Source of the DNA: Stratiformator vulcanicus
GTDB taxonomy: Bacteria; Planctomycetota; Planctomycetia; Planctomycetales; Planctomycetaceae
Length of the DNA: 64,000 nt
Reading direction: 5' to 3'
NCBI RefSeq assembly: GCF_007744515.1
Contig: NZ_CP036268.1
Location: 1-64,000 of the forward strand
Shown: in pieces, positions 1,603 to 63,541 of the stretch
How the letters are laid out: each line of letters starts with the position of its first letter
Numbering within the stretch: position 1 is the first letter of the stretch
Notes under the pieces: generated by a model
The model's database searches: none
Told to the model about the DNA's origin: nothing
What the model saw: the letters and a program-made list of their open reading frames with translations, nothing else
Made by a program: the position numbers and the translations under genes

Positions 1603-2715
1603 ATGAAGCTTCAATGTCATCGACCGACGCTGTCGATGGCCTTCGGAACGGTGGGGTCGGTGGTACCGGCACGCACCCCGAAGGAGATATTGAAAAACGT
1701 CCGCATTATCGCGGAAAACGGCACTGCCACGCTCATCGGGACCGACTCGGAGATCGGCGTTCGGTACGAGATTCCCGAGGTTCACGTCGAAGAACCGGGC
1801 GAGACGCTCGTTCCAGCGGGGCGATTCAGTCAGATCCTGCGGGAACTGACTGAGGACGACTTCCACCTGTCGATTGAAGATGGCGGCGTATGGATTCGCT
1901 GCGGCCATAGTGAATTCCGACTTTCTCCGGAGGATGTCGCTGATTTCCCACCGGTCCCTTCATTCGAAGAAACCGCCTACCTGGCGATGCCCGGCGGCGT
2001 GCTGAAGGAAGCGATTCGTCGCACCGTGATCGCGACCGACACCGAAAGCACGCGCTACGCCCTCGGCGGCGTGCTGCTCGAGGCCGCTACCGATCGCGTC
2101 ACCTTCGCCGCCACCGACAGCCGGCGTCTCTCGGTGGTCGAGGCTCCCTGTCGGCAGGAAGGGACCGTCGAGTCCAACAATGCGGGGCCGGTCGTACCAA
2201 GCAAGGCGATGCAGCTCATTGAGCGAAGCATCACCGATGAAGACGCGGAGGTCGCGCTCGCTTTGCACGAAAACGACGCCGTGATGCGGGTCGGCCAATG
2301 CACGATTTCCAGTCGACTGGTCCAAGGGCGGTTTCCGAAATATCGAGCCGTCATTCCTGATGAAACGCCGATCACGATCGAAATGGTCGCCGGACCGCTC
2401 TACTCGGCCGTCCGTCAGGCACAAATCGTGACCAACGACGAGAGTCGGGGCGTCGACTTCAAATTCGCCGACGGCACGCTGACATTACAAAGCATCGCCG
2501 CCGACGTCGGGCAGTCGAAAATCGAATTGCCGATTCCCTATGACGGCGAGGCGTTGACCATCACGTTCGATCCGCGGTTCGTCGCCGACGTGCTGAGGAT
2601 TTTGGACAACGATACCGCGTTTACGCTTCATCTGACCGACGGTGACAGCCAGGCGGTCATTCGAGTGGGCGACTCGTTCACCTATGTCATCATGCCGCTA
2701 TCACGGGATCGATAA
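1603..2715 (+). CDS. dnaN: DNA polymerase III beta subunit (sliding clamp)
   Basis: Ring-shaped processivity clamp of the replicative polymerase. The 370-residue product has family length and three repeated clamp folds. The N-terminus carries the pattern around KLQCHRPTLSMAFGTVG, the first domain continues through EIGVRYEIP, and the C-terminus ends in FTYVIMPLSRDR, resembling the usual YVIMPMR-type ending. The ATG at 1603 is chosen because AGGA lies nine bases upstream and the clamp fold starts directly after it; an in-frame TTG at 1528 would add 25 residues unlike the family. The following DUF721 gene starts within tens of bases of the stop, so the two are probably co-transcribed. Confidence 0.97.
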   Translation: MKLQCHRPTLSMAFGTVGSVVPARTPKEILKNVRIIAENGTATLIGTDSEIGVRYEIPEVHVEEPGETLVPAGRFSQILRELTEDDFHLSIEDGGVWIRCGHSEFRLSPEDVADFPPVPSFEETAYLAMPGGVLKEAIRRTVIATDTESTRYALGGVLLEAATDRVTFAATDSRRLSVVEAPCRQEGTVESNNAGPVVPSKAMQLIERSITDEDAEVALALHENDAVMRVGQCTISSRLVQGRFPKYRAVIPDETPITIEMVAGPLYSAVRQAQIVTNDESRGVDFKFADGTLTLQSIAADVGQSKIELPIPYDGEALTITFDPRFVADVLRILDNDTAFTLHLTDGDSQAVIRVGDSFTYVIMPLSRDR

Positions 2716-2755
2716 TGCGGTCGACTTGCAGGACAGGGTGAAAACGGACTCCGTT

Positions 2756-3091
2756 ATGCGACGCCGTATGTCGGATTCTTCCCGTCCTCAATCATTGGGC
2801 GAAGCCCTTTCGCACCTGATTCAGGCGAAGGGAATCGCCAAACCGAATGCGACTGCTGAGCTATCAACCGCCTGGCGCGAGACGGCCGGCGAACGAATCG
2901 CTTCGCACAGCCGTGTGATTAATGTGCATCGTGGAATCTTGAATGTCGCGGTATCGAGTTCGGCCTTGATGGGGGAGCTATCGGCTTACCATCGCGATCC
3001 GATTTTAGAAGCACTCAACGACAAGTATGAGCATTTAAAAATTAAGGGCTTGAAGTTTCGGTTACGCGGAGATCTGAGAGACGATTCGTAA
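2756..3091 (+). CDS. DUF721 / DciA-type protein
   Basis: Small DUF721-family protein (about 111 residues). The family pattern is an N-terminal helical part with SLGEALSHLIQAKGI, a central W-x-E-x-(A/V)-G-x-x-(I/L)-x-x-H run seen here as WRETAGERIASHS, then a short beta region (RGILNVAVSSSALMGEL). DciA is the helicase-operator protein that loads DnaB in most bacteria lacking DnaC/DnaI, and it commonly sits between dnaN or recF and gyrB. The start is uncertain: ATG 2756 is used; GTG 2738 has an AGGA close upstream and ATG 2768 is also in frame. No recF lies between dnaN and gyrB. Loader function is inferred from family and position. Confidence 0.8.
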   Translation: MRRRMSDSSRPQSLGEALSHLIQAKGIAKPNATAELSTAWRETAGERIASHSRVINVHRGILNVAVSSSALMGELSAYHRDPILEALNDKYEHLKIKGLKFRLRGDLRDDS

Positions 3092-5656
<2,565 letters not shown>

Positions 5657-5689: not shown

Positions 5690-6763
5690 GTGCGAAAGGT
5701 CGATACGGTTATCATCGGACAGGGTCTTGCCGGTTCGCTCGTTGCGTGGTTGTTGCTGCAGCGAAATGAGAACGTCGTCGTCATTGATCGCGGAGATATC
5801 GGTTCCGCATCGAGAGTAGCGGTGGGATTGGTGACGCCGATCACGGGGAAACGCCTTGTGCGGTCGTGGCGTTTCGACGAATTTCATCGCCGAGGGATCG
5901 CCATCTATCGGGCAATCGAGCGCGAACTCGGGCAGGAACTCTATTCGGCCCGGTCAGCGGTACGTTTGTTCGGCTCTCAGGCCGAGCGTGAACGATTCGA
6001 TGGTAAAGCGGAACGCGAATTCGGTGACCTCGTCGAAACCATCGATCCCGCTGTGAATGAAAGCCTCTACCATGCGCCGTTCGGAGGCTTCCAGATGAAA
6101 CGGGCGGGCCGGCTTGATGTGCCCGGCTTCGTCGAAGCCATCGGAGAATGGTTGCAGCAGCAAGGTCGGCTGATCCTTGGCGAGTTCGATCTGACCAAGG
6201 ACGTTCGCGAAGATGCAGGTCGTCTTGTGATCGAGACCTTCGGTTTATCGGCTAACCAGATTGTGTGCTGTCGCGGGTTCTCAGAATCAATGTCTGAGGA
6301 TTTCGCAGGATTGGACTTTAATGCTGCCAAAGGAGAAGTCTTAAAAATTGAGCGGTTTCCAACTTGTGATTCGCGGACGATTCACAGCGGAGGCTGGCTG
6401 GCTGATGTCGGGGACGGCTTAGCCGTCGGGGCCACGTATGAGTGGGACCGGCTCGATGATCAGGTCACCGATGCGGGTCGGGTGAATCTTGAACTTCGAT
6501 TGCAGCGGATGCTGCGTGTGCCGTATCGCGTCATCGATCAAGCAGCCGGCGTACGGCCGATCTTGCGTTGGCAGCGGCCGACGATCGGGCAGCATCAAAC
6601 GTTTTCGGGCGTCTACTGCTTCAACGGTCTCGGCTCGAAAGGTGTTTTACAAGCGCCCTATTTTGCCGAGCAACTGGTCAGTCATCTCTGCGATGGGTCG
6701 AATATCGAACCGGAGGCGGATCTGGCCAGCTCGAGCGTGAAGGCGTCGACATCATGCGATTGA
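5690..6763 (+). CDS. FAD-dependent oxidoreductase, MnmL/MnmC1-like
   Basis: Member of the DAO fold. A dinucleotide-binding GxGxxG (GQGLAG, residues 10-15) follows a beta strand at the N-terminus, an acidic residue ends the second strand (VVVIDRG), and the C-terminus has the FAD-site run NGLGSKGVLQAP. The last motif resembles the C-terminal half of E. coli MnmC, which converts cmnm5U to nm5U in tRNA. The next gene, overlapping by ten bases, is a MnmM-type methyltransferase that would do the second step. The start is GTG 5690, 33 bases after gyrB; its ribosome-binding site is weak. Other DAO roles such as amino-acid oxidation are possible, but the partner gene argues for tRNA modification. Confidence 0.72.
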   Translation: MRKVDTVIIGQGLAGSLVAWLLLQRNENVVVIDRGDIGSASRVAVGLVTPITGKRLVRSWRFDEFHRRGIAIYRAIERELGQELYSARSAVRLFGSQAERERFDGKAEREFGDLVETIDPAVNESLYHAPFGGFQMKRAGRLDVPGFVEAIGEWLQQQGRLILGEFDLTKDVREDAGRLVIETFGLSANQIVCCRGFSESMSEDFAGLDFNAAKGEVLKIERFPTCDSRTIHSGGWLADVGDGLAVGATYEWDRLDDQVTDAGRVNLELRLQRMLRVPYRVIDQAAGVRPILRWQRPTIGQHQTFSGVYCFNGLGSKGVLQAPYFAEQLVSHLCDGSNIEPEADLASSSVKASTSCD

Positions 6764-7317
6764 CCGAGCAAGCCCACGCATTGATTCGGCCCCACCTTCG
6801 GCCGGGGGACACCGTCATCGATGCGACCGTTGGCAATGGCTACGACACGTTATTTCTGGCCGAAGGTGTCGGCGGCGACGGGAACGTGTATGGTTTTGAT
6901 ATTCAGCTCGATGCGCTCAAAGCAGCGGGGCAGCTTCTCGAAGAGGCCGGCTATCAGAACGTCCGACTCTATCAATCCTCTCACAGTCGACTAAGGTCAG
7001 AGCTCCCGCCGGACCTTGACGGACGAATTTCCGTCGTGATGTTTAACTTGGGCTATCTTCCCGGTGGCGACCATGGCATCGTCACAACGCGGGATTCGAC
7101 CCTGCCGGCGATCTCGCAATCGTTTCAACTACTCAAACCCGCCGGTCTCCTTTCCGTCATCGCTTACACGGGCCACAGTGGCGGTCGCGAAGAAACAATC
7201 GCCCTTGAAGAACACTTCGCATCGATGGATCTGGATTCGGTTCAAAAGTTGGCGTGGCCGCTGCACCCGGCGACAGTAGAAACGGGCCCGCGGCTGTATG
7301 TCATTCAGCAGAGATGA
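6754..7317 (+). CDS. mnmM: SAM-dependent methyltransferase, MnmM/YtqB family
   Basis: Class I methyltransferase of 187 residues. The SAM-binding motif I reads IDATVGNGYDTLFLAEG and the strand-2 acidic position is in YGFDIQ; together they closely match the B. subtilis YtqB family (putative rRNA methylase family, later shown to be MnmM, which methylates nm5(s2)U to mnm5(s2)U at tRNA position 34). Further conserved features are FNLGYLPGGDH and an ALLSVIAYTGHSGG-like strand. The ATG at 6754 overlaps the end of the oxidoreductase gene by ten bases, implying translational coupling. The pair would reproduce, as two proteins, what E. coli does with the bifunctional MnmC. The substrate is inferred from the family. 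Confidence 0.8.
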   Translation: MRLTEQAHALIRPHLRPGDTVIDATVGNGYDTLFLAEGVGGDGNVYGFDIQLDALKAAGQLLEEAGYQNVRLYQSSHSRLRSELPPDLDGRISVVMFNLGYLPGGDHGIVTTRDSTLPAISQSFQLLKPAGLLSVIAYTGHSGGREETIALEEHFASMDLDSVQKLAWPLHPATVETGPRLYVIQQR

Positions 7318-7332
7318 TCAATCAGCGTTTCA

Positions 7333-7827
7333 ATGATCCGACTCCCAATAATTGTCCTCGCCGGAGCCTTAATCGGCGCGCTGGTTTGCTGGGGGGTGGA
7401 TCACAGTCTGCACGTTCGAATGAACGAAGTCGGTGTCCCGTCGTTCTACCAGATGAGTATTGATCTGTTCGGTCCGGCCGGTTCGATCGGACTTTTTGGC
7501 GTCGTCCCGATCGTGATGTCATCGGCGTTCGGAGCGGTCATCGCCCTGGTCGAAACGCGACTACTAAAACGCTGGGCGAGGATATTTCGACGAATTTGCT
7601 ACTGCACCTTCGGGGAATACGCATTTCTATATTCTGCGGGCATGAACCTCGCGTTCGCGACTTATCTTCTTTCTTACGAGCTTCCGCTTGCTGCGATGGT
7701 GTCGATCGTCGGGACATCGGGGAGCTTGGTCGGGTTCGCCACCTACCGGTGGCTATCGGGCCGATTAACGGCGGGAGACTTACCGAAAAAATTAATCGAT
7801 CGCGATAACGACCTTGCCGACGTGTGA
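7333..7827 (+). CDS. Small integral membrane protein, function unknown
   Basis: A 164-residue protein with about four hydrophobic segments (near residues 4-20, 50-72, 92-112 and 118-135), starting directly with a membrane helix (MIRLPIIVLAGALIGALV). No family is recognised. It begins 15 bases after mnmM and is probably at the end of that transcript. Its last codons overlap the 3' end of the convergent dehydrogenase gene by 36 bases. Length, clear membrane pattern and codon continuity support a real gene. Confidence 0.65.
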   Translation: MIRLPIIVLAGALIGALVCWGVDHSLHVRMNEVGVPSFYQMSIDLFGPAGSIGLFGVVPIVMSSAFGAVIALVETRLLKRWARIFRRICYCTFGEYAFLYSAGMNLAFATYLLSYELPLAAMVSIVGTSGSLVGFATYRWLSGRLTAGDLPKKLIDRDNDLADV

Positions 7828-8805
7828 ACCCGACTGCAAATGCCGATAGGCATCCGGAGCTTCATCAAAGCCGAAGACCCGATCGATGGCTGGCTTAAGT
7901 TGTGATGTTTCGATCGCACGGTTCATGGCGTGAAACATCTCGCGGCTGCCGACATAAATGCCGTGAATCGTGACGCGATTAAACAGGGCGAGAAGCGGGT
8001 TCACCGCCCCCTCAGTACCACTTAATACGCCGATGAGTGAGACGTGCCCATTGAGTGCGGCCGACTTTAGCGAGCGCTCCAACGTGCCGATGCCGCCGAC
8101 TTCAACGACATTATCAACGCCACGACCGTCCGTCAGGTCGCGCACGTTGCGGTGCCATTCGGGGTTATCGCGGTAATTGACGATGTCCGTTGCCCCGAGT
8201 TGTTTGGCCTGCTCTAACTTCTCGTCACTACTGCTGGTCGCGATGACGCGGGCACCGTGCATCGCGGCAAATTTGATGGCAAAGGTCGAGACGCCACCGG
8301 TTCCGAGGGTCAGGATGTCGTGACCCGCCTTTATGTCGCCTTTGACAACCAAGGCCTGCCATGCGGTGAGCGCGGCACAGGGCAGCGTCGAGGCTTCCTC
8401 GAATGACAAATGTTGCGGCACGGGGACAAGGGCGTGCGGCTTAAACGTCATGTACTCGCGAAGGACGCCATCGATGCCGCCGCCGAGCGCGGTCTGAAAC
8501 TGTTCTTCCGTCGGATCTCCACCGACCCAGTCGCGGAAGAAACAACCGGCGACACGATCACCGGTCTTAAACTCGGTAACATCCTCGCCGACTTCAACGA
8601 CCTCCCCTGCCCCGTCGCTGAGCGGGATGACCGGTCGCGTGTCATTCCGCGAATATCCGCCTTGAGCGACAATTAAGTCGCGATAATTCAAGCTGCAGGC
8701 GCGGATGCGGACGAGAACCTCATCAGCCTTGGGCTTGGGGCCGTCGAGATTGACTCGCTCGATCGCGTCGATCCCACCGTCCGAATGAATCTGATAAGCC
8801 TTCAT
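7792..8805 (-). CDS. Zinc-type alcohol dehydrogenase / quinone oxidoreductase family (MDR)
   Basis: Medium-chain dehydrogenase/reductase of 337 residues. The N-terminal catalytic domain has the GroES-like run SLNYRDLIVAQGGY and PLSDGAGEVVEVGEDV. The C-terminal Rossmann domain has the coenzyme loop LTLGTGGVSTFAIKFA. The Cys and His ligands of the catalytic zinc are not visible at the usual places (NYRD replaces the Cys-containing motif), and the structural four-Cys lobe is absent, so a zinc-independent NADPH quinone or enoyl reductase-like activity is more likely than a classical alcohol dehydrogenase. The substrate cannot be inferred. It is convergent with the preceding membrane-protein gene. 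Confidence 0.85.
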   Translation of the reverse strand: MKAYQIHSDGGIDAIERVNLDGPKPKADEVLVRIRACSLNYRDLIVAQGGYSRNDTRPVIPLSDGAGEVVEVGEDVTEFKTGDRVAGCFFRDWVGGDPTEEQFQTALGGGIDGVLREYMTFKPHALVPVPQHLSFEEASTLPCAALTAWQALVVKGDIKAGHDILTLGTGGVSTFAIKFAAMHGARVIATSSSDEKLEQAKQLGATDIVNYRDNPEWHRNVRDLTDGRGVDNVVEVGGIGTLERSLKSAALNGHVSLIGVLSGTEGAVNPLLALFNRVTIHGIYVGSREMFHAMNRAIETSQLKPAIDRVFGFDEAPDAYRHLQSGSHVGKVVIAID

Positions 8806-8841
8806 AACGTCGTTTCCAGAATCGAGGTGAAAAGTTCCAAC

Positions 8842-8866
8842 AATAGCCCGACGCGCAAGCGAGGGA
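8842..8866 (+). repeat. REP-A dispersed repeat copy
   Basis: Single copy of the roughly 28-bp element (AATAGCCCGACGCG, then AAGCGAGGGA), lying 37 bases upstream of the dehydrogenase start. It is one of at least 13 copies in the window. Confidence 0.7.
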
Positions 8867-8917
8867 GATCAACAGAGAAATTCATCTCCCGCACTCACAC
8901 GCGGCTTGCCACTATAT

Positions 8918-9679
8918 TTAATGCATTAACAGCATCCCCGCAGCCATGGCCGCCATGCCAACGTCTTCAATTAAAGTGACGGTCGACATCGGAAGATTAA
9001 TGACCGTCCCCATGCAGGCGCAGCGAATCTGGCGGCGATTCAGCAGACTGTTCAGCACGCCGATCGAACCGATCAGCATCACGACGATTGTCACGATGTT
9101 CGTGGCGGTCGGGAAAATTCTTCCGAGGTAAGCAGCTCCGAGCCCGAGTTCGATGAAAGGATACACATAGGCGTAGGGCTTCCACGCTTTGGCCACGAGG
9201 TCGTACATGCTGAAGGTCGCGGCGAACCCGCGGAGGTCGAGCAGTTTGAAGAAGGCGAAGGCCATCAGAAAACCGCCCATGAAGTCGGCCATGAACTCGC
9301 CGGTCGACCATTCGGTTCGCCAACGTATCAATAGCGTACCGGTGAGCAGAATGCCGACCATCAGAATCAGCGGGTAGTAGCTCTTTTCCGTTTCGGTGCT
9401 GGAAGGGTCTGGCTCGGTATCAAACTCCGGCTGTTTCGTCGTGTCTGGCTCGACTTCCGATTGGACCCGGTAATCGCCGGCGTTTTGCACGGCTTGGGAG
9501 ATTCGGTCTTTGTCGATCGGCTCATCGCCTTCGATCGTAACTTCGGGCGGGGCGAGTGTGATGGAGGCGGTCTGTCCGCGCTCAAGCGCTTCGCCGACCG
9601 ATGCTTCGATGCGGCGGACACACGATTCGCAGTGCATGCCCTCGACACGGAAAGTCTGGCTGACGGTAGCGGTGCTCAT
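8918..9679 (-). CDS. Heavy-metal-associated domain fused to DoxX/MauE-like membrane domain
   Basis: The first 70 residues form an HMA fold with the metal motif GMHCESC (CxxC), as in copper chaperones and CopA N-termini. A Pro/Glu/Thr-rich linker follows, then four predicted membrane helices (IRW-preceded segment near 105-120, then three between about 130 and 250). These contain the CACMG motif near the last helices that is typical of MauE/DoxX-like proteins. Cytoplasmic HMA capture of a metal linked to a membrane redox or transport step is plausible but unproven. The ATG at 9679 is chosen over an upstream in-frame start because GGAGGG lies about ten bases before it. Known as a domain combination; specific role unknown. 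Confidence 0.75.
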   Translation of the reverse strand: MSTATVSQTFRVEGMHCESCVRRIEASVGEALERGQTASITLAPPEVTIEGDEPIDKDRISQAVQNAGDYRVQSEVEPDTTKQPEFDTEPDPSSTETEKSYYPLILMVGILLTGTLLIRWRTEWSTGEFMADFMGGFLMAFAFFKLLDLRGFAATFSMYDLVAKAWKPYAYVYPFIELGLGAAYLGRIFPTATNIVTIVVMLIGSIGVLNSLLNRRQIRCACMGTVINLPMSTVTLIEDVGMAAMAAGMLLMH

Positions 9680-9794
9680 CGATACGTCCCTCCGGCAAAT
9701 GTCCAATTCCTGACTCAGCCTATCTTAGGCGAGCGGAATTTGCCGGTGATCCGGGAGTGTCCCCATGCGTTCGCTGCGGGAAGGCGACGCCGAA

Positions 9795-10250
9795 TCAGCC
9801 GCGGCTGCGAAACAGCCAAGCGCCGCGGACCGGCGGGGACGATTGCGCGGCCGTATCGTTCGCCTTGGCCGGTAGCGGCGGGAGGCTGTCGTCCCTCTTC
9901 GAGTCCACCGGAGGCCTGAGGTCGACCGGTTCGTTCATGACCGGCTCCTTTAAGACCGGCTCTGTCGCCGCCGCGGGAACTTCTGCGGATACCCAGGAGG
10001 CGCCTGCCGGTGGACTATGCACAGGAATTGACCCCGGCCCGGCATTGTACGACCAGCGATAGTGCTCGGCGTCGGCTCGTGTCGGGGGGAGATGGTGAAT
10101 TTGCTCGACGAACAAAGCCGGTTCGCGAAGCGTATTCTTATCGGCCCAACATCGCGTGACGACGTATCGGCTGGAGTAAACGCAGCCGGTGCTCCCGCAG
10201 ATCGAGATCGCCAAACAGATCAGGGCGAGTTGCTGACGGGAGGGCTTCAT
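9795..10250 (-). CDS. Predicted lipoprotein of unknown function
   Basis: About 151 residues beginning with a charged N-region and hydrophobic helix ending in the lipobox STGC, which predicts signal peptidase II cleavage and lipid anchoring. The mature part is Pro-rich and low in complexity in its second half (runs of Glu-Pro and Pro-Pro), with no recognised domain. ATG 10250 is preferred; a GTG four codons upstream is also possible. It stands alone, 115 bases from the HMA/DoxX gene on the same strand. Confidence 0.6.
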   Translation of the reverse strand: MKPSRQQLALICLAISICGSTGCVYSSRYVVTRCWADKNTLREPALFVEQIHHLPPTRADAEHYRWSYNAGPGSIPVHSPPAGASWVSAEVPAAATEPVLKEPVMNEPVDLRPPVDSKRDDSLPPLPAKANDTAAQSSPPVRGAWLFRSRG

Positions 10251-10558
10251 ACGATCAATCACACGAATTAGTGACGCTGCCGGATCGGTGCGTCCGCGAC
10301 TTCGAGGGCAAGCTCAACGCTTGTTCGCAGCCGCAGCGCCGGAGCATGGCCTCTGGGACTAGCATCGATCGACAGGATCGGTGCAGTTGATGCGACCGTG
10401 ATCGACCGCAAGAACCGGCACAGGCGGAGCATCCCGGACGCCCCGATTAAATTACTTGCGTCCCCCCAACCCCCGTTCTAAAGTCAAAGTGTTGAATTTA
10501 GGGAACATGGGAAGAAACGACGGAGCGGACGGCGTTCGAATTCTGTTGAGGCGATGTG
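10251..10558. other. Divergent intergenic region, no gene seen
   Basis: The 308 bases between the lipoprotein and the Tyr/Gly-rich gene must hold promoters for both. No gene, repeat or convincing hairpin was seen. GAGG at 10548-10551 is the ribosome-binding site of the following gene. Confidence 0.5.
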
Positions 10559-15880: not shown

Positions 15881-18800
15881 ATGTCGACTTTATTTTACCG
15901 CGATACACGGTTGCTCACGCTGACCGTCATCATTATTGCCGTGGCCGGTCTGTCCTCGTGGCATGTGTTGCCGAGGCTGGAAGACCCCGAGCTGACGTCA
16001 CGGGTCGCGCTGATCAAAACCATCTACCCCGGTGCCCCGCCGGAGCGCGTCGAAGCGCTGGTGACGGAAAAGATTGAGGACGAACTGACCGAGATCGAAG
16101 AGATTAAAGAAATCGAATCGACGAGCAGTTCCGAAGTCTCAATCTTAACCGTCGAATTAAGGGACGACGTCTACGAGACCGAACCGGTGTGGTCTCGCAT
16201 CCGCGACGAACTCGACGACGCCCGTTTAACAATAGCCGAGGACGCGCTCGATCCGGAATTCGAGGAAATCGATGTCAAAGCCTACGCCTTTATTACGTCG
16301 GTCGTGTGGGAAGCCGACGGCCCGCCGAACTACGCGATTTTGCGGAGGCTGGCCGAAGAATTAAAGGATCACCTCGAAGCGATCGCAGGCACCGAAGAAA
16401 TTGATCTTTATGGCGATCCGCAGGAGGAAATTCTCGTCGAAGTCGATCCATCGCGAGCCATTGCCTCGGGGCTTGACGCGGCGTCGATTTCCGCCGGAAT
16501 CGACGATAGCGACTCTAAGAATGCCGCCGGCCAACTGCGGTCCGAAGAGGCGGACCTGCTGCTCGAGGTGTCGTCGGAACTCGATTCGCTGGAACGGGTG
16601 CGGCGAACTCCGATCCGCGTGGCCGAAGACGGCACGATCGTGCAACTCGGTGACGTCGCGACGATATCGAAAGCGGTTCGACGACCAATGACGGATGAGA
16701 CGCTGATCGGTGGCAAACCGGCCGTCACGCTGGCGGTGTTCGTCGAATCGGATTTTCGCGTCGATCATTGGGCGGAGGCCGCTCATCGCGAAGTCGATGC
16801 CTTTCGGGAGGGGCTGCCGCAGGGCATCGGCCTGCCCGTGGTGTTCGATCAAAGCGTCTATACGGCGGACCGTCTCGGCGCATTAATTAATAACCTTATC
16901 CTCGGAGCGCTGGCCGTCGTCGGAGTGATCTTTGTCATTATGGGTTGGCGGTCGGCGGTGCTGGTGGGCACGGCGCTGCCGCTATCAGTGTTGTGCGTGT
17001 TTGCCGGGATGAACTTATTCGGTATCCCGATTCATCAAATGTCGGTGACCGGCCTGATCATCGCGCTGGGATTATTAATTGATAACGCGATCGTTGTGGT
17101 CGACGAAGTTCGGCGTCGGCTCAAGGACGAACCCCCCGCCGATGCCATTGCGCACTCGGTCGGGCATTTGGCTGTTCCATTATTCGGGTCGACTTTAACG
17201 ACGATCCTCGCGTTTTCGCCGATCGCTTTAATGCCGGGGCCGGCCGGCGAGTTCGTCGGGTCGATCGCGACGGGCGTGATCCTCGCGCTCATTAGTTCGC
17301 TGGCCGTTTCGCTGACAATTGTGCCGGCCGTCACGGGATTGACGCAGCGGTTTGTCCGGAAGACCGATCGCCATCATTGGTGGCGTGATGGCATCTCGAT
17401 CCCCTTCATCGCTCGCATTTATAAAAACGTGCTCGGTTTCCTGTTCCGCGTCCCCATCGCCGCGATCGGTTTATCGGCGGTTTTTCCATTCATGGGCTTT
17501 TACGTCGGGGGCATGTTACCGGAACAGTTTTTTCCGCCCTCGGACCGTAACCAGTTTCAAATTGAAATTGAGCTTCCGCCCTCGGCTTCAATCGGGCGGA
17601 CGAGACAAACGGCTTTGGAGATCCGCGAGGTCGTCGTTGAGATGCCCGGTGTGGAAGACGTGCATTGGTTTCTCGGACGGAGTGCACCGAGCTTTTACTA
17701 CAACCTGCTTCGCAATCGACAGAATGCGTCTCAATACGGGCAGGCCTTGGTGCAACTGGATAGCGGTCGTGATATCTTCGCACGGATTAATAAAATTCAG
17801 GCTGAGCTGGATGACCAATTCCCGGCTGTGCGAGTGCTGGCCCGGCAACTCGAACAGGGGCCGCCGTTTGATGCCCCGGTCGAAATGCGAGTCTACGGAC
17901 CCGATCTTAATGTGCTGCGAGAAGTCGGCGAGCAACTGCGTGAGGAATTAGTGGCGGTCGAACACACGACGTACAGCCGGGCCAACCTGACGGAGACGCT
18001 TCCGAAAATGTCATTGGAGGTCGATGAGGAAAGCGCCCGCATCGCAGGCTTTAATAATGCCGGTATTGCTCGACAACTCGAAGCCACGTTGGAAGGTCAA
18101 ATCGGCGGTTCGATCCTTGAGGCGACCGAAGAATTGCCGGTGCGGGTTCGGATCGGTTCGCAGGACCGCGGCCGACTCGATGCGATTCGCTCGCTCGAAT
18201 TATTGCCGCCGCAGCAGCAAGGTGTGCGGGGCGCGGAATTCGTCCCGCTCTCCGCCATTGCGGAGACCCGACTGAAGCCGGTGTCCGCGGGGATTCCCCG
18301 GCGCGACGGGCGACGCGTTAATACAGTGCAGGGTTTCATTAACGCGGGCGTGTTGCCTTCGACGGTCTTGGAACCGTTTCGCCGGCGGGTGGCCGAGTCG
18401 ATCGAAGCGGGTCGCATCGTTCTGCCTCCGGGATACTCGATCGACGTCGGCGGCGAGTCGGCCGCGCGGGATCGGGCGGTCGGCAATCTGCTCGCGTTCG
18501 TCGGCGTGCTGGGAACCATCATGGTGGCGACGCTGGTGCTGTCGTTTCATTCGTTTCGGATGGCCGGGATCATTGGGGCGGTCGGGTTCTTGTCGGTCGG
18601 ATGCGGCCTGGGTGCACTGTACGTCGCCGGTTACCCCTTCGGATTCATGGCAATCGTCGGCACGATGGGCCTCGTCGGCGTGGCCATCAACGATGCGATC
18701 GTGGTGCTCGCCGCGTTGAGAGAGGATCCACTGGCACGGAGCGGCGACGTGGATGCGATTCACAGAATTGCGATGCGTGAGACCCGTCACGTCGTTGCCA

Positions 18801-19066
18801 CAACAATTACGACGATCGCGGGATTCATCCCGTTGCTGGTCGATGGCGGCAAATTCTGGCCGCCGTTAGCGGTGTCGATCGCCGGGGGTGTGGCGGGAGC
18901 AACTCTGCTGGCGCTGACGTTCGTTCCCGCCTCGTTAGTGTTGCTCGCTCAGGTCGGGAGCATCTTCGGTCGCCACAAGTCTTCGAACAAATTAGTCGAA
19001 GCTGAGCCGGACGAATCCCCCTCGATTGAGAGCCATCAACGTCAGCCTGCCCCGCTAACCGTGTGA
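15881..19066 (+). CDS. RND-family efflux pump permease (AcrB/MexB-like)
   Basis: Proton-driven inner-membrane exporter, 1061 residues, with the twofold repeated plan of an N-terminal helix, a large periplasmic loop and six-helix bundle, then the same again. The first loop begins with YPGAPPERVEALVTEKIE. In helix 4 the usual Asp-Asp pair is Asp-Asn (GLLIDNAIVVVDEV), so only one of the two proton-relay aspartates is kept there, as in a divergent RND subfamily. The second half has GLVGVAINDAIVVL. No outer-membrane TolC-type gene lies nearby, so the channel must be supplied from elsewhere. Substrate unknown. Confidence 0.93.
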   Translation: MSTLFYRDTRLLTLTVIIIAVAGLSSWHVLPRLEDPELTSRVALIKTIYPGAPPERVEALVTEKIEDELTEIEEIKEIESTSSSEVSILTVELRDDVYETEPVWSRIRDELDDARLTIAEDALDPEFEEIDVKAYAFITSVVWEADGPPNYAILRRLAEELKDHLEAIAGTEEIDLYGDPQEEILVEVDPSRAIASGLDAASISAGIDDSDSKNAAGQLRSEEADLLLEVSSELDSLERVRRTPIRVAEDGTIVQLGDVATISKAVRRPMTDETLIGGKPAVTLAVFVESDFRVDHWAEAAHREVDAFREGLPQGIGLPVVFDQSVYTADRLGALINNLILGALAVVGVIFVIMGWRSAVLVGTALPLSVLCVFAGMNLFGIPIHQMSVTGLIIALGLLIDNAIVVVDEVRRRLKDEPPADAIAHSVGHLAVPLFGSTLTTILAFSPIALMPGPAGEFVGSIATGVILALISSLAVSLTIVPAVTGLTQRFVRKTDRHHWWRDGISIPFIARIYKNVLGFLFRVPIAAIGLSAVFPFMGFYVGGMLPEQFFPPSDRNQFQIEIELPPSASIGRTRQTALEIREVVVEMPGVEDVHWFLGRSAPSFYYNLLRNRQNASQYGQALVQLDSGRDIFARINKIQAELDDQFPAVRVLARQLEQGPPFDAPVEMRVYGPDLNVLREVGEQLREELVAVEHTTYSRANLTETLPKMSLEVDEESARIAGFNNAGIARQLEATLEGQIGGSILEATEELPVRVRIGSQDRGRLDAIRSLELLPPQQQGVRGAEFVPLSAIAETRLKPVSAGIPRRDGRRVNTVQGFINAGVLPSTVLEPFRRRVAESIEAGRIVLPPGYSIDVGGESAARDRAVGNLLAFVGVLGTIMVATLVLSFHSFRMAGIIGAVGFLSVGCGLGALYVAGYPFGFMAIVGTMGLVGVAINDAIVVLAALREDPLARSGDVDAIHRIAMRETRHVVATTITTIAGFIPLLVDGGKFWPPLAVSIAGGVAGATLLALTFVPASLVLLAQVGSIFGRHKSSNKLVEAEPDESPSIESHQRQPAPLTV

Positions 19067-57114: not shown

Positions 57115-60100
57115 ATGCTGATGCGCCCGATCTACCGCCTGCCGATTGCACTTATCGCTGCTTCGATTCTGATCTACTCGGGCCGACCGCTTGCGGCTGG
57201 TGACGGCAACGACGTTTTGCGGCCCGATAATCTGGTCGCGTGGTGCATCGTGCCTTTCGATGCGAAGGATCGCGGGCCGGCGGAACGGGCGGCGATGCTG
57301 AAGGAATTGGACGTCTCCCATTGTGCTTATGACTGGCGGCGGGAGCATGTGCCGACGTTCGAGGACGAGATTCTTCAGTACCGCGAGCACGGCATCGAAT
57401 TCTTTGCCTTCTGGAGCGAACACCCGCGGGCGTTCGAGCTCTTCGAAAAGTACGACCTGCATCCGCAGATCTGGAAGACCGCACCCAGTCCTGCGGGCGA
57501 CTCCGACGAGGCCCGCGTCGAAGCGGCGGTCAAGTCGCTGACGCCGTTAGTCACAAGGGCGGGCGAACTCGGTTCGAAGTTTGGCCTCTACAACCACGGC
57601 GGCTGGGGCGGAGAGCCGGCGAACCTCGTGGCGGTGTGCCGACGCTTCCGCGAACTCGGGCATGAGCACGTCGGGATCGTCTACAACTTCCATCACGCCC
57701 ACGGGCATATCGAAGATTGGCCCGAAGTCTTCGCGGCGATGAAGCCTTATTTGCTGTGCCTGAATCTCAACGGGATGAACGAGGGTGCGAAGCCGAAAAT
57801 CGTCCCGATCGGCCAAGGTCGGCACGAAGCCGAGATGATCCGCGTCGTTGTCGAAAGCGATTACGACGGGCCGATCGGCGTCCTCGATCACCGGAGTGAA
57901 ATCGACGCCCGCGAGGCGCTCAAGCAGAATTTGGAGGGGCTTGCGGAGCTTCGAAAGAAGTTCGCCAAGGACGACAAACCGCAAGAGGATCGAGATGTCA
58001 GTGCAACCGAGCCGAAGAGCGCCGAAGGAGAATTCCCCTACGATCCGCAACTCATTTCCGCACTCATCAATGAGGCCAGCAAGGAGGGCGATGCGAAACG
58101 CGGGGCGGCCGTCTTCGCATCTGCGAAAACCGCTTGCCTCTCATGTCATCGTGTCGGAGCGCACGGCGGCAAGGTCGGGCCGGAGCTATCAAAAATTGCC
58201 GCGGAGAAGAAGCTGCCGCACATTGTGGAATCGATCTTCTGGCCCAAGCGCGAGGTCAAACCGGAGTACGTGGTGCATCAGGTGCTCACGATCGACGGCC
58301 GCATTCGATCGGGTTTTCGTCATGCCGAAGATGACGACCACTTCACCCTTCGTGACGCGAACACCGGCAAGCTCACGGCGATCCCGCAGGATGAGATCGA
58401 CGATGTCTTTACCGGCAGCACGCCGATGCCCGCCGCTTTGGCGAAAGCGATGTCGCGTCGCCAACAGGTCGATCTGATCCGGTTTCTGTCGGAACTCGGT
58501 CGCGGCGAGGACGGCACCGTCACAGACGGAGTTCCTCCGGAAATTGATTCCCTGTTAGCCCGCCTCGGCTCGCACGCACCGGCTGACTTCCCTCTCTCAA
58601 AGGCACCGCTGGAACCGGCGCATTGGCCGAACGCATCGCATCGGGTCAATCGTGATCGCATCTACGATTTCTACACAAAGCAGGCGGAGCATTTCCGGCG
58701 AAGCGGTCCACCGCCGATGTTGCTGAAGGCCTATCCCGGACTCGACGGAGCCGATACCGGGCACTGGGGCAATCAGACAGAATCGACGTGGCGCGACGAC
58801 CGCTGGAACAAGATGCGGCTTGGCTCGGTGCAGGCGGGCGTGCTGAATCTTGATGGTCGCCGGATCGCGCGGGCGATCTGCCTGCGGCTCGGCGACCATG
58901 CGGTCTGCTTCAATCCCGACACGCACACCTATGAGGCATTCTGGAAAGGCGGCTTCGTCAGTTATTCATCGACCCGGCGGGGCTTTCTCGGGGGGATGAA
59001 AGTCGACGGCAAACTCCTGTCGCTGCCCGCGTTCAAGCCTCGTCCACAGCCGGTCGAGTATCTGGGTTTCCACCGAGCGGGAAACGAAGTCGCGTTTCAC
59101 TTTCGAGCCGAGGGCAGCGAGTATCTCGAAATCCCGCGGGTGGTTGCGGGGAAGCTCACCCGTACGATCGTCCCTTTTGAAGATCATCCGTTTCAATCGC
59201 TCTTGACCGGAAGCGATCCGACTTCGCCCAAGGTGTATGAGACGGAAATCGCCCTTGGCGACGGGTCGCCCTACGCGATCGACACGATCACGGTTCCGGA
59301 GCAGACCGAAGACAACTCGTTGTTCTTTTTCGGAGGGCACGACTTCCTGCCCGACGGCTCGGCAATGCTCTGCACGATGCAGGGGGACGTCTGGCACGTC
59401 AGCGGACTCGACTCCGGCACCGCACGATGGCGGCGATTCGCATCGGGGCTGCATCATCCGCAGGGTCTCGTCGTCGACGAAGATGGGGCGGTGTTCGTGC
59501 AGTGCCGGGACGCGTTGATGCGACTGACCGACGAGGACGGCGATGGCTCCGCCGACTATTACGAATGCTTCGACAAGTCGTTTAAGACATCGCCCGCCGG
59601 TCACGATTTTATTTGCGGGTTGGAGCGCGATGCCGACGGGAATTTCTACACCTCCTCGGGTAATCAGGGCCTGTTGAGAATCGGCGCCGATGGCGAATCG
59701 TCCGAAGTCATTGCGACCGGCTTTCGCAATCCCGACGGTCTCGGCCTGTTGCCCGATGGCACGATTTCGGTCCCCGCCTCGGAAGGCAGTTGGACGCCGG
59801 CCTCGATGATCTGTGCGGTCACACCGAAAGAAATCCAAAGCGGTGGTCGTCCGCACTTCGGCTATCGCGGTCCGCGGGGCGGCAAGCCGCCGTCGTTGCC
59901 GTTGGCTTATCTACCGCGAGCCCTCGACAACTCCAGCGGCGGACAGGTCTTCGTCGACGGCGATCGCTGGGGTCCGCTCAGCGATCAGCTCTTGCATCTT
60001 TCATTCGGAATGGGCTCGTGGTTTACGGTCCTGCGTGACGAAGTTGACGGCGTTCCGCAGGGGGCCGTGGTGCCGATGACCGGGGACTTTCTCTCCGGTG

Positions 60101-61098
60101 TGCATCGGGGTCGCTTCCGTCCGCAGGATGGCCAGCTCTATGTCACCGGTATGCAGGGCTGGGGTTCTTATACGATCGCCGATGGATGCTTTCAGCGGGT
60201 GCGATATACAGGGGCGAAGTTTCAGACTCCGATTGGCTTTCACGTGCACGAGAACGGGGTACGCGTTGAGTTCGCCGAGCCGGTTGCCGCAGAAGTCGCC
60301 ACCGAACCGAAAAGCCACTTCGCCCAAAGCTGGAACTACCGCTACAGCGGCGGCTACGGCTCCCCCGAGTACTCGCCATCGCACCCCGGCGTTGCCGGTC
60401 ATGACCCGCTCGAGATCGCATCTGCTCATGTCCTGGACAACGGGACGTCGCTCTTCGTGGAGATTCCCGAGATCCAGCCGGTCAGCCAATTGCATCTGCG
60501 ATTGAACGTCAATCGCGCGGGCGAAGTCCCGACGGCAAACCCCGCGGGAACCGGGCACGACCTGTTCGTCACGGTTCACCGTCTCGACGCCCCCTTCACC
60601 GGCTTCCCCGGCTACGTCGAGCGGGACAAGCTGATCGCCGTTCATCCGCTGCTATCGGACATGCGGCTCAATGCGGCGCGGAAGCCGAACCCGTGGCGGA
60701 ACGAGGTCAAAGGCGCTCAGCCGATCCGCGTCCTGACGGGTGAGAATCTCAGCTATCAGACTCGCGAGTTGACGGTCACCGCCGGGGAGCCGATCGCCTT
60801 CACGCTCGCCAATCCCGATGTCGTGCCGCACAACTGGGTGCTCGCCAAACGCGGCACGCTGCGAAGTGTTGGCGAACTCGCCAACAAGCTGATCGCCGAT
60901 CCCGACGCCTTCGCCCGGCACTACGTCCCGAAGACGGCCGACGTGCTCGTGCATACCGATGTCGTGGGTCCGGGCGACGAGCAAACGATCTACTTCAAGG
61001 CCCCTGAAGAACCGGGGCGCTACCCGTTCCTATGCACCTTTCCGGGTCACTGGATGGTCATGAACGGGACGATGGTCGTAGGAGTTGTGGATGAGTGA
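57115..61098 (+). CDS. Four-module secreted redox protein: TIM barrel, cytochrome c, sugar-dehydrogenase-like, cupredoxin
   Basis: A 1327-residue protein with a signal peptide (IALIAASILIYSGRPLAAG). Residues about 35-285 resemble a sugar-phosphate isomerase/epimerase TIM barrel (GSKFGLYNHGGWGGEP, HVGIVYNFHHAHGH). A class I cytochrome c-like domain follows, with CLSCH at 341-345 (CxxCH) inside the PVC-type pattern GDAKRGAAVFASAKTACLSCH. Residues about 500-1090 hold a beta-propeller like PQQ/sorbosone dehydrogenases (FASGLHHPQGLVVDEDGAVFV, GFRNPDGLGLLPDG). The C-terminal 110 residues are a cupredoxin: His in VVPHNWVLAK (about 1239) and Cys1307, His1312, Met1314 in CTFPGHWM. Together these suggest sugar oxidation with electrons passing from propeller to haem to copper. 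Confidence 0.85.
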   Translation: MLMRPIYRLPIALIAASILIYSGRPLAAGDGNDVLRPDNLVAWCIVPFDAKDRGPAERAAMLKELDVSHCAYDWRREHVPTFEDEILQYREHGIEFFAFWSEHPRAFELFEKYDLHPQIWKTAPSPAGDSDEARVEAAVKSLTPLVTRAGELGSKFGLYNHGGWGGEPANLVAVCRRFRELGHEHVGIVYNFHHAHGHIEDWPEVFAAMKPYLLCLNLNGMNEGAKPKIVPIGQGRHEAEMIRVVVESDYDGPIGVLDHRSEIDAREALKQNLEGLAELRKKFAKDDKPQEDRDVSATEPKSAEGEFPYDPQLISALINEASKEGDAKRGAAVFASAKTACLSCHRVGAHGGKVGPELSKIAAEKKLPHIVESIFWPKREVKPEYVVHQVLTIDGRIRSGFRHAEDDDHFTLRDANTGKLTAIPQDEIDDVFTGSTPMPAALAKAMSRRQQVDLIRFLSELGRGEDGTVTDGVPPEIDSLLARLGSHAPADFPLSKAPLEPAHWPNASHRVNRDRIYDFYTKQAEHFRRSGPPPMLLKAYPGLDGADTGHWGNQTESTWRDDRWNKMRLGSVQAGVLNLDGRRIARAICLRLGDHAVCFNPDTHTYEAFWKGGFVSYSSTRRGFLGGMKVDGKLLSLPAFKPRPQPVEYLGFHRAGNEVAFHFRAEGSEYLEIPRVVAGKLTRTIVPFEDHPFQSLLTGSDPTSPKVYETEIALGDGSPYAIDTITVPEQTEDNSLFFFGGHDFLPDGSAMLCTMQGDVWHVSGLDSGTARWRRFASGLHHPQGLVVDEDGAVFVQCRDALMRLTDEDGDGSADYYECFDKSFKTSPAGHDFICGLERDADGNFYTSSGNQGLLRIGADGESSEVIATGFRNPDGLGLLPDGTISVPASEGSWTPASMICAVTPKEIQSGGRPHFGYRGPRGGKPPSLPLAYLPRALDNSSGGQVFVDGDRWGPLSDQLLHLSFGMGSWFTVLRDEVDGVPQGAVVPMTGDFLSGVHRGRFRPQDGQLYVTGMQGWGSYTIADGCFQRVRYTGAKFQTPIGFHVHENGVRVEFAEPVAAEVATEPKSHFAQSWNYRYSGGYGSPEYSPSHPGVAGHDPLEIASAHVLDNGTSLFVEIPEIQPVSQLHLRLNVNRAGEVPTANPAGTGHDLFVTVHRLDAPFTGFPGYVERDKLIAVHPLLSDMRLNAARKPNPWRNEVKGAQPIRVLTGENLSYQTRELTVTAGEPIAFTLANPDVVPHNWVLAKRGTLRSVGELANKLIADPDAFARHYVPKTADVLVHTDVVGPGDEQTIYFKAPEEPGRYPFLCTFPGHWMVMNGTMVVGVVDE

Positions 61099-61242: not shown

Positions 61243-62616
61243 TTGGGCGATCCGAAACGCGACCAGTTACAAGTCAAACAAAAGCGGGCGGTGCTCGCGG
61301 CGGTGATCACTCCCGACGATCCGCTCTCCAAAGAACACGCATTGGATGAACTGAAGGGGCTGGTTGAAACCGCGGGCGTGATGGTCGTCGGCGAGTTGAT
61401 CCAGAACCGGCAGAATCCGCATCCCGCGCACTGCCTCGGCACCGGCAAGCTCGAAGAGCTGGCCGAACTGGCCAAGGCGACCGACGCCGAGCTGATCATC
61501 TTCGACAACAATCTCTCGCCCGCTCAGGGGCGAAATCTTGAAGAGCAGACCGGCACGGTCATCGTCGATCGCAGCGAGGTCATTCTCGACATCTTCGCTT
61601 CGAACGCCCGGACGTACGAAGCGAAGTTGCAGGTGGAACTGGCGCAATTGCTCTACTTCCGCCCGCGGCTAAAACGGCTGTGGACGCACTTGGAACGAAT
61701 CGAAGGTGGTGTGGGAGCCGGGCGCGGTCCCGGTGAAAAGCAGCTCGAGACCGACCGCCGCTTGCTCGATCGACGGGTCGCGGAATTAAAGCGAAAGCTC
61801 GGCGAAGTCGAGGGGCGTCGCCGCCGTGCGGTCGATGCCCGCGATGAGAATCCGACGGTTTCGCTCGTCGGCTACACCAACGCCGGCAAGAGCACCTTGA
61901 TGAACGCCCTCACGGGGGCCGATGTCTATGTGGCGAACAAGCTCTTCGCGACACTCGATACCCGGACGCGGAAGTGGTCGGTCCCGAACTGGGGCGAGTT
62001 GCTGCTGTCCGACACGGTCGGGTTCGTTCGCAATCTGCCGCACCACTTGGTGGCGTCGTTCCGCTCAACGCTCGAAGAGGCCCGGCAGGCCGATCTGCTG
62101 CTGCACGTCGTCGATGCGAGTAATCCGGAAGCCGAGGAACAGATTCGGACGGTCTACGAGGTGCTCGAAGAGATCGGCGTTGAGACCGACAGCGTGCAGC
62201 TCGTCTTCAACAAGATCGACAAGGCGGAAGCCGAAGGGCCGTCCACGCTCGATATCTTAAGGCGTGAGTTTCCCGATGCGGTCTCCGTCAGCGCCGCTAC
62301 CGGTCGCGGGATCGAACGCCTGACGGAACTCGTCACCATACGGTTGGGTGACGGCTATGTCGACGCGGTGATCGATACCTCCGCGGGCAACGGCAAGCTG
62401 CTCGCCTTCCTCGCGGCACACGGCGTGATTCAGAATCGGGACTACGTCGATTCACGTGTCCGCGTTGAAGTTCGCCTGCCGCGGACGACGGCCGACCGCA
62501 TCTTCGCGGATGAGTCGTTAGTGGATGAGGACACGAAGTTCGAACTCCTTTCGGCAAAGTCGGGAGAATCGCTGGGCGACCCGCTCCAACCCGCAACGCA
62601 CGCGGCTTCAGGGTGA
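61243..62616 (+). CDS. hflX: GTPase HflX
   Basis: Ribosome-associated GTPase that splits stalled 70S ribosomes under stress. The 457-residue protein has the HflX N-terminal domain (VMVVGELIQNRQNPHPAHCLGTGK, FDNNLSPAQGRNLE), a helical linker with RIEGGVGAGRGPGEKQLETDRR, and a G domain with G1 GYTNAGKS (210-217), G3 DTVGFVRNLPH (257-267) and G4 NKID (323-326). A C-terminal extension of about 60 residues is present. The TTG start at 61243 has GAGGG upstream and gives the family N-terminus. Single gene; a REP-A copy follows by 20 bases. Confidence 0.94.
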   Translation: MGDPKRDQLQVKQKRAVLAAVITPDDPLSKEHALDELKGLVETAGVMVVGELIQNRQNPHPAHCLGTGKLEELAELAKATDAELIIFDNNLSPAQGRNLEEQTGTVIVDRSEVILDIFASNARTYEAKLQVELAQLLYFRPRLKRLWTHLERIEGGVGAGRGPGEKQLETDRRLLDRRVAELKRKLGEVEGRRRRAVDARDENPTVSLVGYTNAGKSTLMNALTGADVYVANKLFATLDTRTRKWSVPNWGELLLSDTVGFVRNLPHHLVASFRSTLEEARQADLLLHVVDASNPEAEEQIRTVYEVLEEIGVETDSVQLVFNKIDKAEAEGPSTLDILRREFPDAVSVSAATGRGIERLTELVTIRLGDGYVDAVIDTSAGNGKLLAFLAAHGVIQNRDYVDSRVRVEVRLPRTTADRIFADESLVDEDTKFELLSAKSGESLGDPLQPATHAASG

Positions 62617-62636: not shown

Positions 62637-62857
62637 AAACAAGCCCGTCGCCAAGCAAGAGACTTACTCACGAAATCACGAAAGAGTTTAAAGCTTATGA
62701 TCAGATGCGAAGCATTTTTAAGATGATCAACTGCGCTAATTCTCGCGATGATAAAGTCGCGATCTCAAGTCGCGTGGGCTTTTCCTATTTTCGGGCAACC
62801 CTTTCCATACAATGGGAATTTGCGAGCTAATCCCTTGCTGGCGTTGCGGGCTTGTTT
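62637..62857. repeat. Inverted pair of REP-A copies between hflX and Uma2
   Basis: Forward copy 62637-62663 (AACAAGCCCGTCGCC...) and reverse copy 62828-62857 (TAATCCCTTGCTGGCG, then TTGCGGGCTTGTTT), 164 bases apart. Nothing else is seen between them. Confidence 0.75.
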
Positions 62858-62908
62858 GCGTTCAGAATTATTTTCGAACTCTTAGGGCACTTCTTAAAGA
62901 CGTTTGCC

Positions 62909-63541
62909 ATGTCGACATCCCGCAGCATTGACGACGTGATCCATCACCCGCGACCGGGTGAGCCGGCGTACTTCATCGCGGAGTTCTGGCCCGATCAAGG
63001 CCGGTGGAGCGAAGAGGCTTATTTTCGGCTCCCCAAGCAGCAGGGCGTGGAACTTGTTGACGGTCGATTGGAGATGCTTGCTGTGCCGACAACTACTCAT
63101 CAGCGGCTCATGAAATGGGTGTTTCGACTCTTGATGATCAGCGTCGATGATCGCGGCTTGGGCGAAACGTTTCCGGCTGGGTTGCGGGTTCGAATCCGAG
63201 CTGGAAATGTCCGCGAGCCCGATGTCGTTGTTGTTCTAAATCGCCGACCGGGAGCCGACGAAAATCGAGCTCTCAATCACGCCGACCTCGCTGTTGAAGT
63301 CGTCAGTCCCAGTGATCCCGATCGCGATTGGGTTGAAAAGCACCGCGATTATGCGGAGGCCGGCATCAGCGAATATTGGATCGTCGACCCACGCGACCGC
63401 ACGTTGACGATCTTCTCACTCGACGAGGCCGGCGTTTATCAACAGGCGGGTCGCTGCGCAAGCGGGCAGACCGCGCGATCAACCTTGCTGCCTGACGTGA
63501 CCGTAGTCATCGATGAGCTTTTTGCCTGCGTGGGCGAGTGA
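62909..63541 (+). CDS. Uma2-family PD-(D/E)XK nuclease-like protein (copy 2)
   Basis: A 210-residue Uma2 protein: VELVDGRLEM, NVREPDVVVVL, DLAVEVVSPSD (E-x-V), EKHRDYAEAGISEYWIVDP. It shares the family motifs and length with the 24344 gene but is not a close copy. ATG 62909 is chosen; an upstream frame start would add 19 poorly conserved residues. A reverse REP-A copy lies 51 bases upstream. No function is established for the family; restriction-like or mobile-element roles have been suggested. Standing alone, with the REP-A pair before it. Confidence 0.9.
   Translation: MSTSRSIDDVIHHPRPGEPAYFIAEFWPDQGRWSEEAYFRLPKQQGVELVDGRLEMLAVPTTTHQRLMKWVFRLLMISVDDRGLGETFPAGLRVRIRAGNVREPDVVVVLNRRPGADENRALNHADLAVEVVSPSDPDRDWVEKHRDYAEAGISEYWIVDPRDRTLTIFSLDEAGVYQQAGRCASGQTARSTLLPDVTVVIDELFACVGE

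Follow-up and report, generated by a model that had tools for sequence, protein, structure and literature searches.

A planctomycete protein that joins an isomerase-like barrel, a c-type haem, a DUF6797-propeller core and a blue copper domain

Gene and domain architecture

We have analyzed a gene for a large multi-domain protein of the planctomycete Stratiformator vulcanicus (assembly GCF_007744515.1). The window, by which we mean the whole stretch of DNA that was analyzed, comprises positions 1 to 64,000 of contig NZ_CP036268.1, and the gene occupies 57115-61098 on its forward strand. The single predicted chain combines a sugar-isomerase-like barrel, a cytochrome domain, a beta-propeller preceded by a DUF6797 domain, and a cupredoxin. 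Relatives retain the core of DUF6797 and propeller and exchange the modules around it. The features of the gene are as follows (coordinates, strand, description; aa, amino acids; pLDDT, predicted local distance difference test).

57115-61098, + strand: open reading frame (ORF) with ATG start at 57115 and stop at 61098, 1327 aa
57115..57198, + strand: signal-peptide-like N-terminus, aa 1-28, a hydrophobic run ending LAAG
57202..57984, + strand: xylose-isomerase-like triosephosphate isomerase (TIM) barrel, aa 30-290 (PF01261, model, fold match 4ovx, ligand columns)
57982..58026, + strand: low-confidence barrel-to-haem linker, aa 290-304 (pLDDT <50)
58087..58491, + strand: c-type haem domain, aa 325-459 (TIGR02603, profile match to Kustd1711 7zs0)
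58135-58149, + strand: haem attachment site C341-C344-H345 (CxxCH)
58426-58428, + strand: axial methionine M438, by homology to the solved Kustd1711
58903..59130, + strand: DUF6797 domain, aa 597-672 (PF20601), inside a larger beta-rich domain of about aa 480-700
59269..60210, + strand: beta-propeller with six-bladed matches, aa 719-1032 (model, fold matches, conserved columns)
60412..60714, + strand: small beta domain, about aa 1100-1200 (model secondary structure; matched in homologues)
60730..61080, + strand: azurin/auracyanin-type cupredoxin, aa 1206-1322 (PF00127, auracyanin A 2aan profile and fold)

Searches with Pfam and NCBIfam place the PF01261 barrel, the TIGR02603 haem domain, DUF6797 and the PF00127 cupredoxin in this order, and the propeller between the last two was located by modelling and fold search. 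A preliminary description of this DNA, made from its letters without database searches, had listed barrel, cytochrome, propeller and copper site. The frame and all four modules proved real; the list was incomplete, since it lacked DUF6797 before the propeller and the small beta domain after it. Judged from its sequence, the signal-peptide-like N-terminus indicates that the chain is probably secreted. The four-module build is not a product of chance, because 19 homologues found by a whole-protein search align with it at 47-57% identity.

These homologues are aligned in A1 (20 sequences), for which no copper motif was used. The other alignments derive mainly from 80 loci gathered by copper-domain motifs; there are at least 576 relatives, and a set gathered in this way gives no measure of the frequency with which the copper domain is missing. 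The 80 loci and a separate 59-genome set have some contigs in common. Truncated or near-duplicate entries were removed before alignment for A2 (72 rows; 9 of the 80 loci), and removals were also made for A3 (65 rows; 14 of 78 listed pieces), A4 (69 barrel sequences; 5 of 73 stretches, namely L082, L091, L110, L132 and L141), A5 (2 of 78, L087 and L089) and A6, a PF07995 set (10 of 24 loci). AlphaFold2 models were built for aa 28-470 from 65 aligned sequences (mc8b72df15f87; mean pLDDT 91.2, predicted template modelling score, pTM, 0.65) and for aa 470-1327 from 72 (m40a7b6afdb54; mean pLDDT 91.6, pTM 0.88). Residue mappings are based on sequence registers and strand ends, and differences in Z below 1 between fold matches were treated as ties.

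The haem and copper domains

The haem domain scores 79.9 bits against TIGR02603 (cut-off 68.15; aa 325-459) and matches the profile of Kustd1711 of Kuenenia stuttgartiensis (7zs0) at 5.9e-29, while the chain stays below the cut-off of the PVC-type haem protein model TIGR02604 (34.5 vs 122.2). Kustd1711 also fills the first three rows of a Foldseek search with the aa 28-470 model (E 3.3e-10 and weaker), with a root-mean-square deviation (rmsd) of 17.5 Å because that alignment runs across the flexible linker. C341, C344, H345 and M438 are invariant in 20/20 sequences of A1. CxxCH and the distal Met are likewise present in all 56 rows of A3 that have letters there; the other nine of the 65 rows cover the barrel alone, and for two of these (L119, L128) the chain has no haem domain. 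M438 aligns with Kustd1711 M292, a position at which mutant entries carry C and H and which the Kustd1711 paper names as a distal ligand (PMC11791136). The homology covers aa 328-460 and the distal Met is identical, but Kustd1711 itself is a 316-residue dihaem cytochrome with none of the other modules. Genes for cytochrome c assembly are present in the same genome (PF01578, two matches above cut-off).

The cupredoxin matches PF00127 over aa 1209-1322 (47.6 bits, cut-off 21.2) and resembles auracyanin A (2aan) both in profile (6.5e-18) and in fold (Z 18.6, 1.4 Å over 118 aligned residues); the cut-off of the azurin equivalog TIGR02695 is not reached (49.2 vs 105.1). Auracyanin A of Chloroflexus is 30% identical with equal ligand spacing, although it is a stand-alone blue copper protein of 139 residues. 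The copper ligands H1239, C1307, H1312 and M1316 are invariant in 20/20 sequences of A1 and kept in 72/72 rows of A2, the loci of which were gathered by motifs that include the first three ligands but not M1316. The copper site had earlier been drawn with Cys1307, His1312 and Met1314. The cysteine and histidine stand; residue 1314 is Met in 49/72 rows and otherwise L, K or R, so that the axial ligand is M1316, and H1239, the first ligand, had gone unnamed. The single azurin match in Planctomycetes mentioned in PMC8779525 was judged there to be contamination or a wrong annotation.

Cupredoxin and propeller sit in one confident model (pTM 0.88). Many chains of nitrous oxide reductase (NosZ) appear among the first 50 Foldseek rows, since both proteins pair a propeller with a cupredoxin, and the pair could accordingly be read as a copper reductase of that kind. 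However, with query TM-scores of 0.12-0.21 and rmsd of 22-29 Å the two do not share an arrangement. The cupredoxin resembles mononuclear auracyanin and has a single Cys among its ligands, and only three His of the propeller (H830, H961, H997) are near-invariant. The CuZ site needs seven His. The TM-scores and the single ligand Cys led us to reject the likeness, and we regard a reductase of this type as extremely unlikely.

The barrel

Both fold and profile bear out the earlier assignment of a sugar-isomerase-like barrel. PF01261 matches aa 117-277 with 34.9 bits (cut-off 31.1), the fold match to 4ovx of Planctomyces limnophilus has Z 20.2 (3.1 Å over 233 aligned residues), and the 50 best fold rows (Z 18.7-20.6) are all isomerase-like barrels or close kin. 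The register of the metal site was taken from alignments to MJ1311 and 4ovx. The canonical ligands of a sugar isomerase/epimerase, which we take to be Glu-Asp-His-Glu on strands 5 to 8, were not found in the 69 barrel sequences. Their places are held by Y159, N191 and N217/N219, each in 69/69, and by residue 257, which is L (51) or I (18). A canonical metal-dependent sugar isomerase was rejected on account of these substitutions.

The C-terminal ends of most strands nevertheless carry invariant residues in 69/69 sequences (W43, C44, D73, R75, W100, Y159, N160, H161, N191, H193, H194, N217, N219 and H259), and the barrel is probably a remodelled, metal-free active site rather than a dead scaffold. 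The fold is held in common with the 3-keto-glycoside eliminases and epimerases AtOGE, CGE and YcjR (YcjR, Z 18.8), which differ in the metal-ligand places, these being Tyr, Asn, Asn and Leu/Ile in the barrel studied here. In AtOGE the catalytic His134 lies two residues past His132, the strand-5 metal ligand (PMC10628242). By our own mapping, H161 likewise lies two residues past the strand-5 ligand place and so occupies the position of the eliminase base; it is conserved in 69/69.

The DUF6797-propeller core

DUF6797 scores 34.1 bits (cut-off 24.9). The best fold rows for the propeller are PknD (Z 20.4, 3.0 Å over 248 residues) and designed six-bladed Pizza proteins; the putative glucose dehydrogenase 2ism of Thermus follows with Z 19.2 (2.9 Å over 277), and aldose dehydrogenases, lactonases and NHL proteins (TRIM2) are matched as well. 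With rows less than one Z apart counted as equal, the fold does not discriminate between a dehydrogenase, a lactonase and a binding propeller. Between DUF6797 and the cupredoxin the family models match weakly: DUF7133 reaches 25.6 bits in the whole chain and 28.3 with the propeller alone (cut-off 27), and the sub-threshold TIGR02604 match falls there too. H830, R871, N872, E890 and R998 of the propeller are invariant in 72/72 sequences. A propeller search of the genome itself returned one match, the chain under study.

The preliminary description had called the propeller sugar-dehydrogenase-like, and one could take it for a true pyrroloquinoline quinone (PQQ) sugar dehydrogenase that oxidizes C1 with PQQ from the environment, copper and haem replacing a separate acceptor. 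The top Foldseek match of the propeller model is 2ism (E 1.3e-11), and 2ism, 3a9g, 3das, 7cgz and 2g8s, which are aldose or glucose dehydrogenases, give Z 17.2-19.2; NHL, designed and lactonase propellers score equally, so the fold fits without singling out the dehydrogenases. No match to the sugar dehydrogenase family PF07995 appears at E up to 1, with either the whole chain or the propeller alone. The best profile register, obtained with 14 of the 24 PF07995 sequences fetched, sets H830 against the family's invariant His and R871-N872 against its Arg-Asn, but it is weak (E 0.0008, probability 24). An hhalign rerun gave a score of 29.9, where 30 column shuffles averaged 16.9 and reached at most 26.2. 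The profile relation to PF07995 is near noise. Read by eye, R998 lies where the spacing of the RxR motif would put its second Arg; the position of the first Arg is A/V/T/S/I/P in the homologues. A fusion with haem has a precedent in the fungal PQQ-haem pyranose dehydrogenases.

Genes for the cofactor bear on the same question. PqqC was found in one of the 59 genomes (G008), and is absent from S. vulcanicus and 57 of its 58 relatives; every one of the 59 genomes and 14 controls has PqqE profile matches, above cut-off only in G008. PF07995 genes above cut-off were nevertheless present in 30/30 genomes searched, and the control Escherichia coli has PF07995 and lacks PqqC. Because PF07995 is common where PqqC is rare, lack of synthesis is not decisive, and we rejected it as a disproof of PQQ use. 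As an observation in its own right, the abundance of PF07995 propellers in these genomes suggests a cofactor that is scavenged or is not PQQ.

The established PQQ aldose sugar dehydrogenases (2ism, 2g8s, 3das) share the propeller fold and, in one weak register, the His and Arg-Asn; the chain studied here differs in having no PF07995 match, in the loss of one Arg place and in a genome without PqqC. A comparable case is TERTU_3803 of Teredinibacter turnerae, which is likewise large and secreted and has a CxxCH domain alongside a propeller-type domain pair, though its haem and accessory modules are different. Its propeller pair is reported to show neither PQQ binding nor glucose dehydrogenase activity (PMC10916295). 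On balance a true PQQ dehydrogenase is unlikely.

Distribution and exchange of modules

Among the 59 genomes, 19 including S. vulcanicus contain a single match that spans the haem to the copper domain; in four further genomes (G003, G006, G011, G013) the match is fragmented or lies at the end of a contig. The barrel is fused in front in 42 of the 80 loci, of which 21 have LamG and haem, 18 haem only and 3 LamG without haem. One other locus has the barrel behind, 35 begin with haem and have no fused barrel, and two are truncated. An adjoining ORF encodes a barrel next to seven of the 35 unfused chains, upstream in four and downstream in three (L121, L125, L131), so that the barrel accompanies the core as a fusion at one end or the other, or as a neighbouring ORF. 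A survey of module combinations thus finds that the build recurs in relatives, but the chains without a fused barrel weaken the suggestion that the protein is a self-contained device.

The electron module varies as well. L059:3862-9822 encodes barrel, LamG, DUF6797, propeller and a cytochrome c with five CxxCH motifs, and has no copper-domain match. Six loci of another type carry ThuA (L053-L058); in the four scanned with Pfam (L053-L056), ThuA stands in front, DUF6797 and propeller follow, and cytochrome c lies behind; three of these four also contain LamG. This looks like a modular, wired redox family in which a front end (barrel or ThuA) and an electron module (copper domain or cytochrome c) are exchanged around the core. 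In A1, other members have an insertion in the region of aa 290-304, which in L037 is a LamG domain. DUF1080 was rejected as this insert between barrel and haem, since Pfam gives LamG in L037; no LamG match was obtained for L041.

Several individual loci deserve mention. The barrel behind the core belongs to L143:3021-7148, where it forms the C-terminus after the copper domain. At three of the four loci with an upstream barrel ORF (L084, L090, L110), CxxCH lies before the first ATG/GTG/TTG in a frame that is open for 70-80 codons directly after the barrel ORF; the split may reflect a broken fusion, through a real or an assembly frame change, or an unusual start. L044 and L110 have contigs of equal length. 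In L104, the fourth, CxxCH does not precede the first start codon. The barrel of L106 is divided between two ORFs that overlap in different frames (5899-6336 and 6288-10511), a frameshift of either the gene or the assembly. Four records titled Acidimicrobiales or Candidatus Kuenenia (L131, L089, L092, L126) have planctomycete-like versions and are perhaps mis-binned or mislabelled.

Proposed function and alternatives

The domains, their ligands, the conservation of these ligands and the swaps of modules are observed, and an electron module of varying kind behind the core in the chains examined, together with a barrel repeatedly fused to it, is the reason for reading the chain as a wired redox protein. 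We propose that a secreted single-chain redox protein is built on the DUF6797-propeller core, and that core and barrel would handle a sugar-like substrate, the barrel being the front end that deals with the substrate, at a site that is remodelled and probably metal-free. Electrons taken up at the core would pass to the blue copper domain, which packs against it in the model, and would then leave the copper, either directly or through the c-type haem on its flexible tether, for an acceptor in the periplasm and the respiratory chain. Consistent with such a tether, the linker between barrel and haem is of low confidence (pTM 0.65 for that model), against pTM 0.88 for copper domain and propeller. 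We infer the direction of electron flow, catalysis by the core, the sugar substrate and the cofactor, for which scavenged PQQ is possible. The odds that the chain acts on a sugar-like substrate and sends electrons out through copper and haem appear to us about even.

The preliminary description had suggested an extracellular sugar-oxidising electron-transfer device. Its electron-transfer half is well supported by the invariant haem and copper ligands of the 20 A1 sequences and by the exchanged redox modules. Its sugar-oxidising half is supported only in part: the missing PF07995 match, the near-null hhalign score and the absence of PqqC from this genome leave PQQ-type sugar oxidation by the propeller unproven. 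The link of the chain to carbohydrates is indirect; it runs through the isomerase-like fold of the barrel, through the inserted LamG, and through the surroundings of some homologues, where Gfo/Idh or a sulfatase is encoded.

Several results weigh against the proposed redox function on a sugar-like substrate. No barrel was found in the sequenced stretch of 28 of the 80 loci, some of them short contigs, so that the core is not in every case accompanied by a barrel. Three loci of Verrucomicrobiales/Verrucomicrobium (L119, L128, L132) have neither a haem domain nor CxxCH; haem is therefore not essential to the build. A redox cofactor site in the core is not proven. Nothing adjoining the gene in the 64-kb window points to sugars, and an argument from operon structure was rejected because neighbouring genes are inconsistent across loci.

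Some of the same observations would suit a chain that serves for electron transfer and binding only, with propeller and barrel holding carbohydrate or proteins while haem and copper relay electrons: the closest propeller folds include binding propellers (PknD, the NHL domains of TRIM2), the barrel has no canonical metal ligands, and redox modules are exchanged between relatives. The strand-end residues of the barrel, invariant in 69/69, are an active-site pattern, however, and the propeller likewise has several polar positions without variation in 72/72, so that a mere scaffold seems doubtful to us. A more specific version of the catalytic proposal is oxidative glycoside cleavage within one chain, in which the propeller, with a cofactor other than PQQ of the cell's own making, would oxidize a glycoside to a keto-glycoside, the metal-free barrel would take off the activated proton by means of H161 and break or epimerise the sugar, and copper and haem would remove the electrons; we consider this distinctly improbable as stated.

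Genomic surroundings

An HflX-type GTPase (61243-62616) lies downstream of the gene, and the ORF upstream has no Pfam match. Further downstream is a Uma2-family putative endonuclease (62852-63541); neither of these two downstream genes has an evident link to the gene studied. Elsewhere in the window an AcrB-family efflux pump subunit (PF00873) is encoded at 15881-19066. Rfam gave nothing above gathering scores in the 64-kb window. A plasmid origin was rejected, as there was no match in the plasmid collection. Around the homologues, the most frequent recurrent neighbour cluster occurs in 19 loci, and the one member of it that was scanned is PSCyt2/PSD1. Two ORFs upstream of the homologue in L109, a large chain with PQQ_2/BamB-like repeats is encoded (297-4757); similar ORFs occur at that place in six loci.

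Relation to known fusions and significance

Parts of this combination were thought to be known in planctomycetes, and cytochrome fusions confirm it. According to PMC5615132, planctomycete-specific cytochrome (PSCyt) fusions, some with LamG, have no known function, though a part in carbohydrate metabolism is suggested. The PSCyt/PSD and TIGR02603/TIGR02604 fusions of Planctomycetes and Verrucomicrobia are likewise multi-domain proteins with haem domains, some with LamG; the chain studied here differs in joining the TIGR02603 haem with the barrel, DUF6797 and an azurin-like domain. In the open-licence literature searched we found no experimental study of the barrel-haem-propeller-copper architecture, and no mention of DUF6797.

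Planctomycetes and Verrucomicrobia encode many multi-domain haem proteins of unknown function, for which the DUF6797-propeller family offers a testable handle. Its one conserved core, with exchangeable front end and electron module, has fusion partners that point to substrate handling. More widely, propellers of the PF07995 type are common in these bacteria where genomes lack PqqC, which implies that their cofactor is scavenged or is not PQQ.

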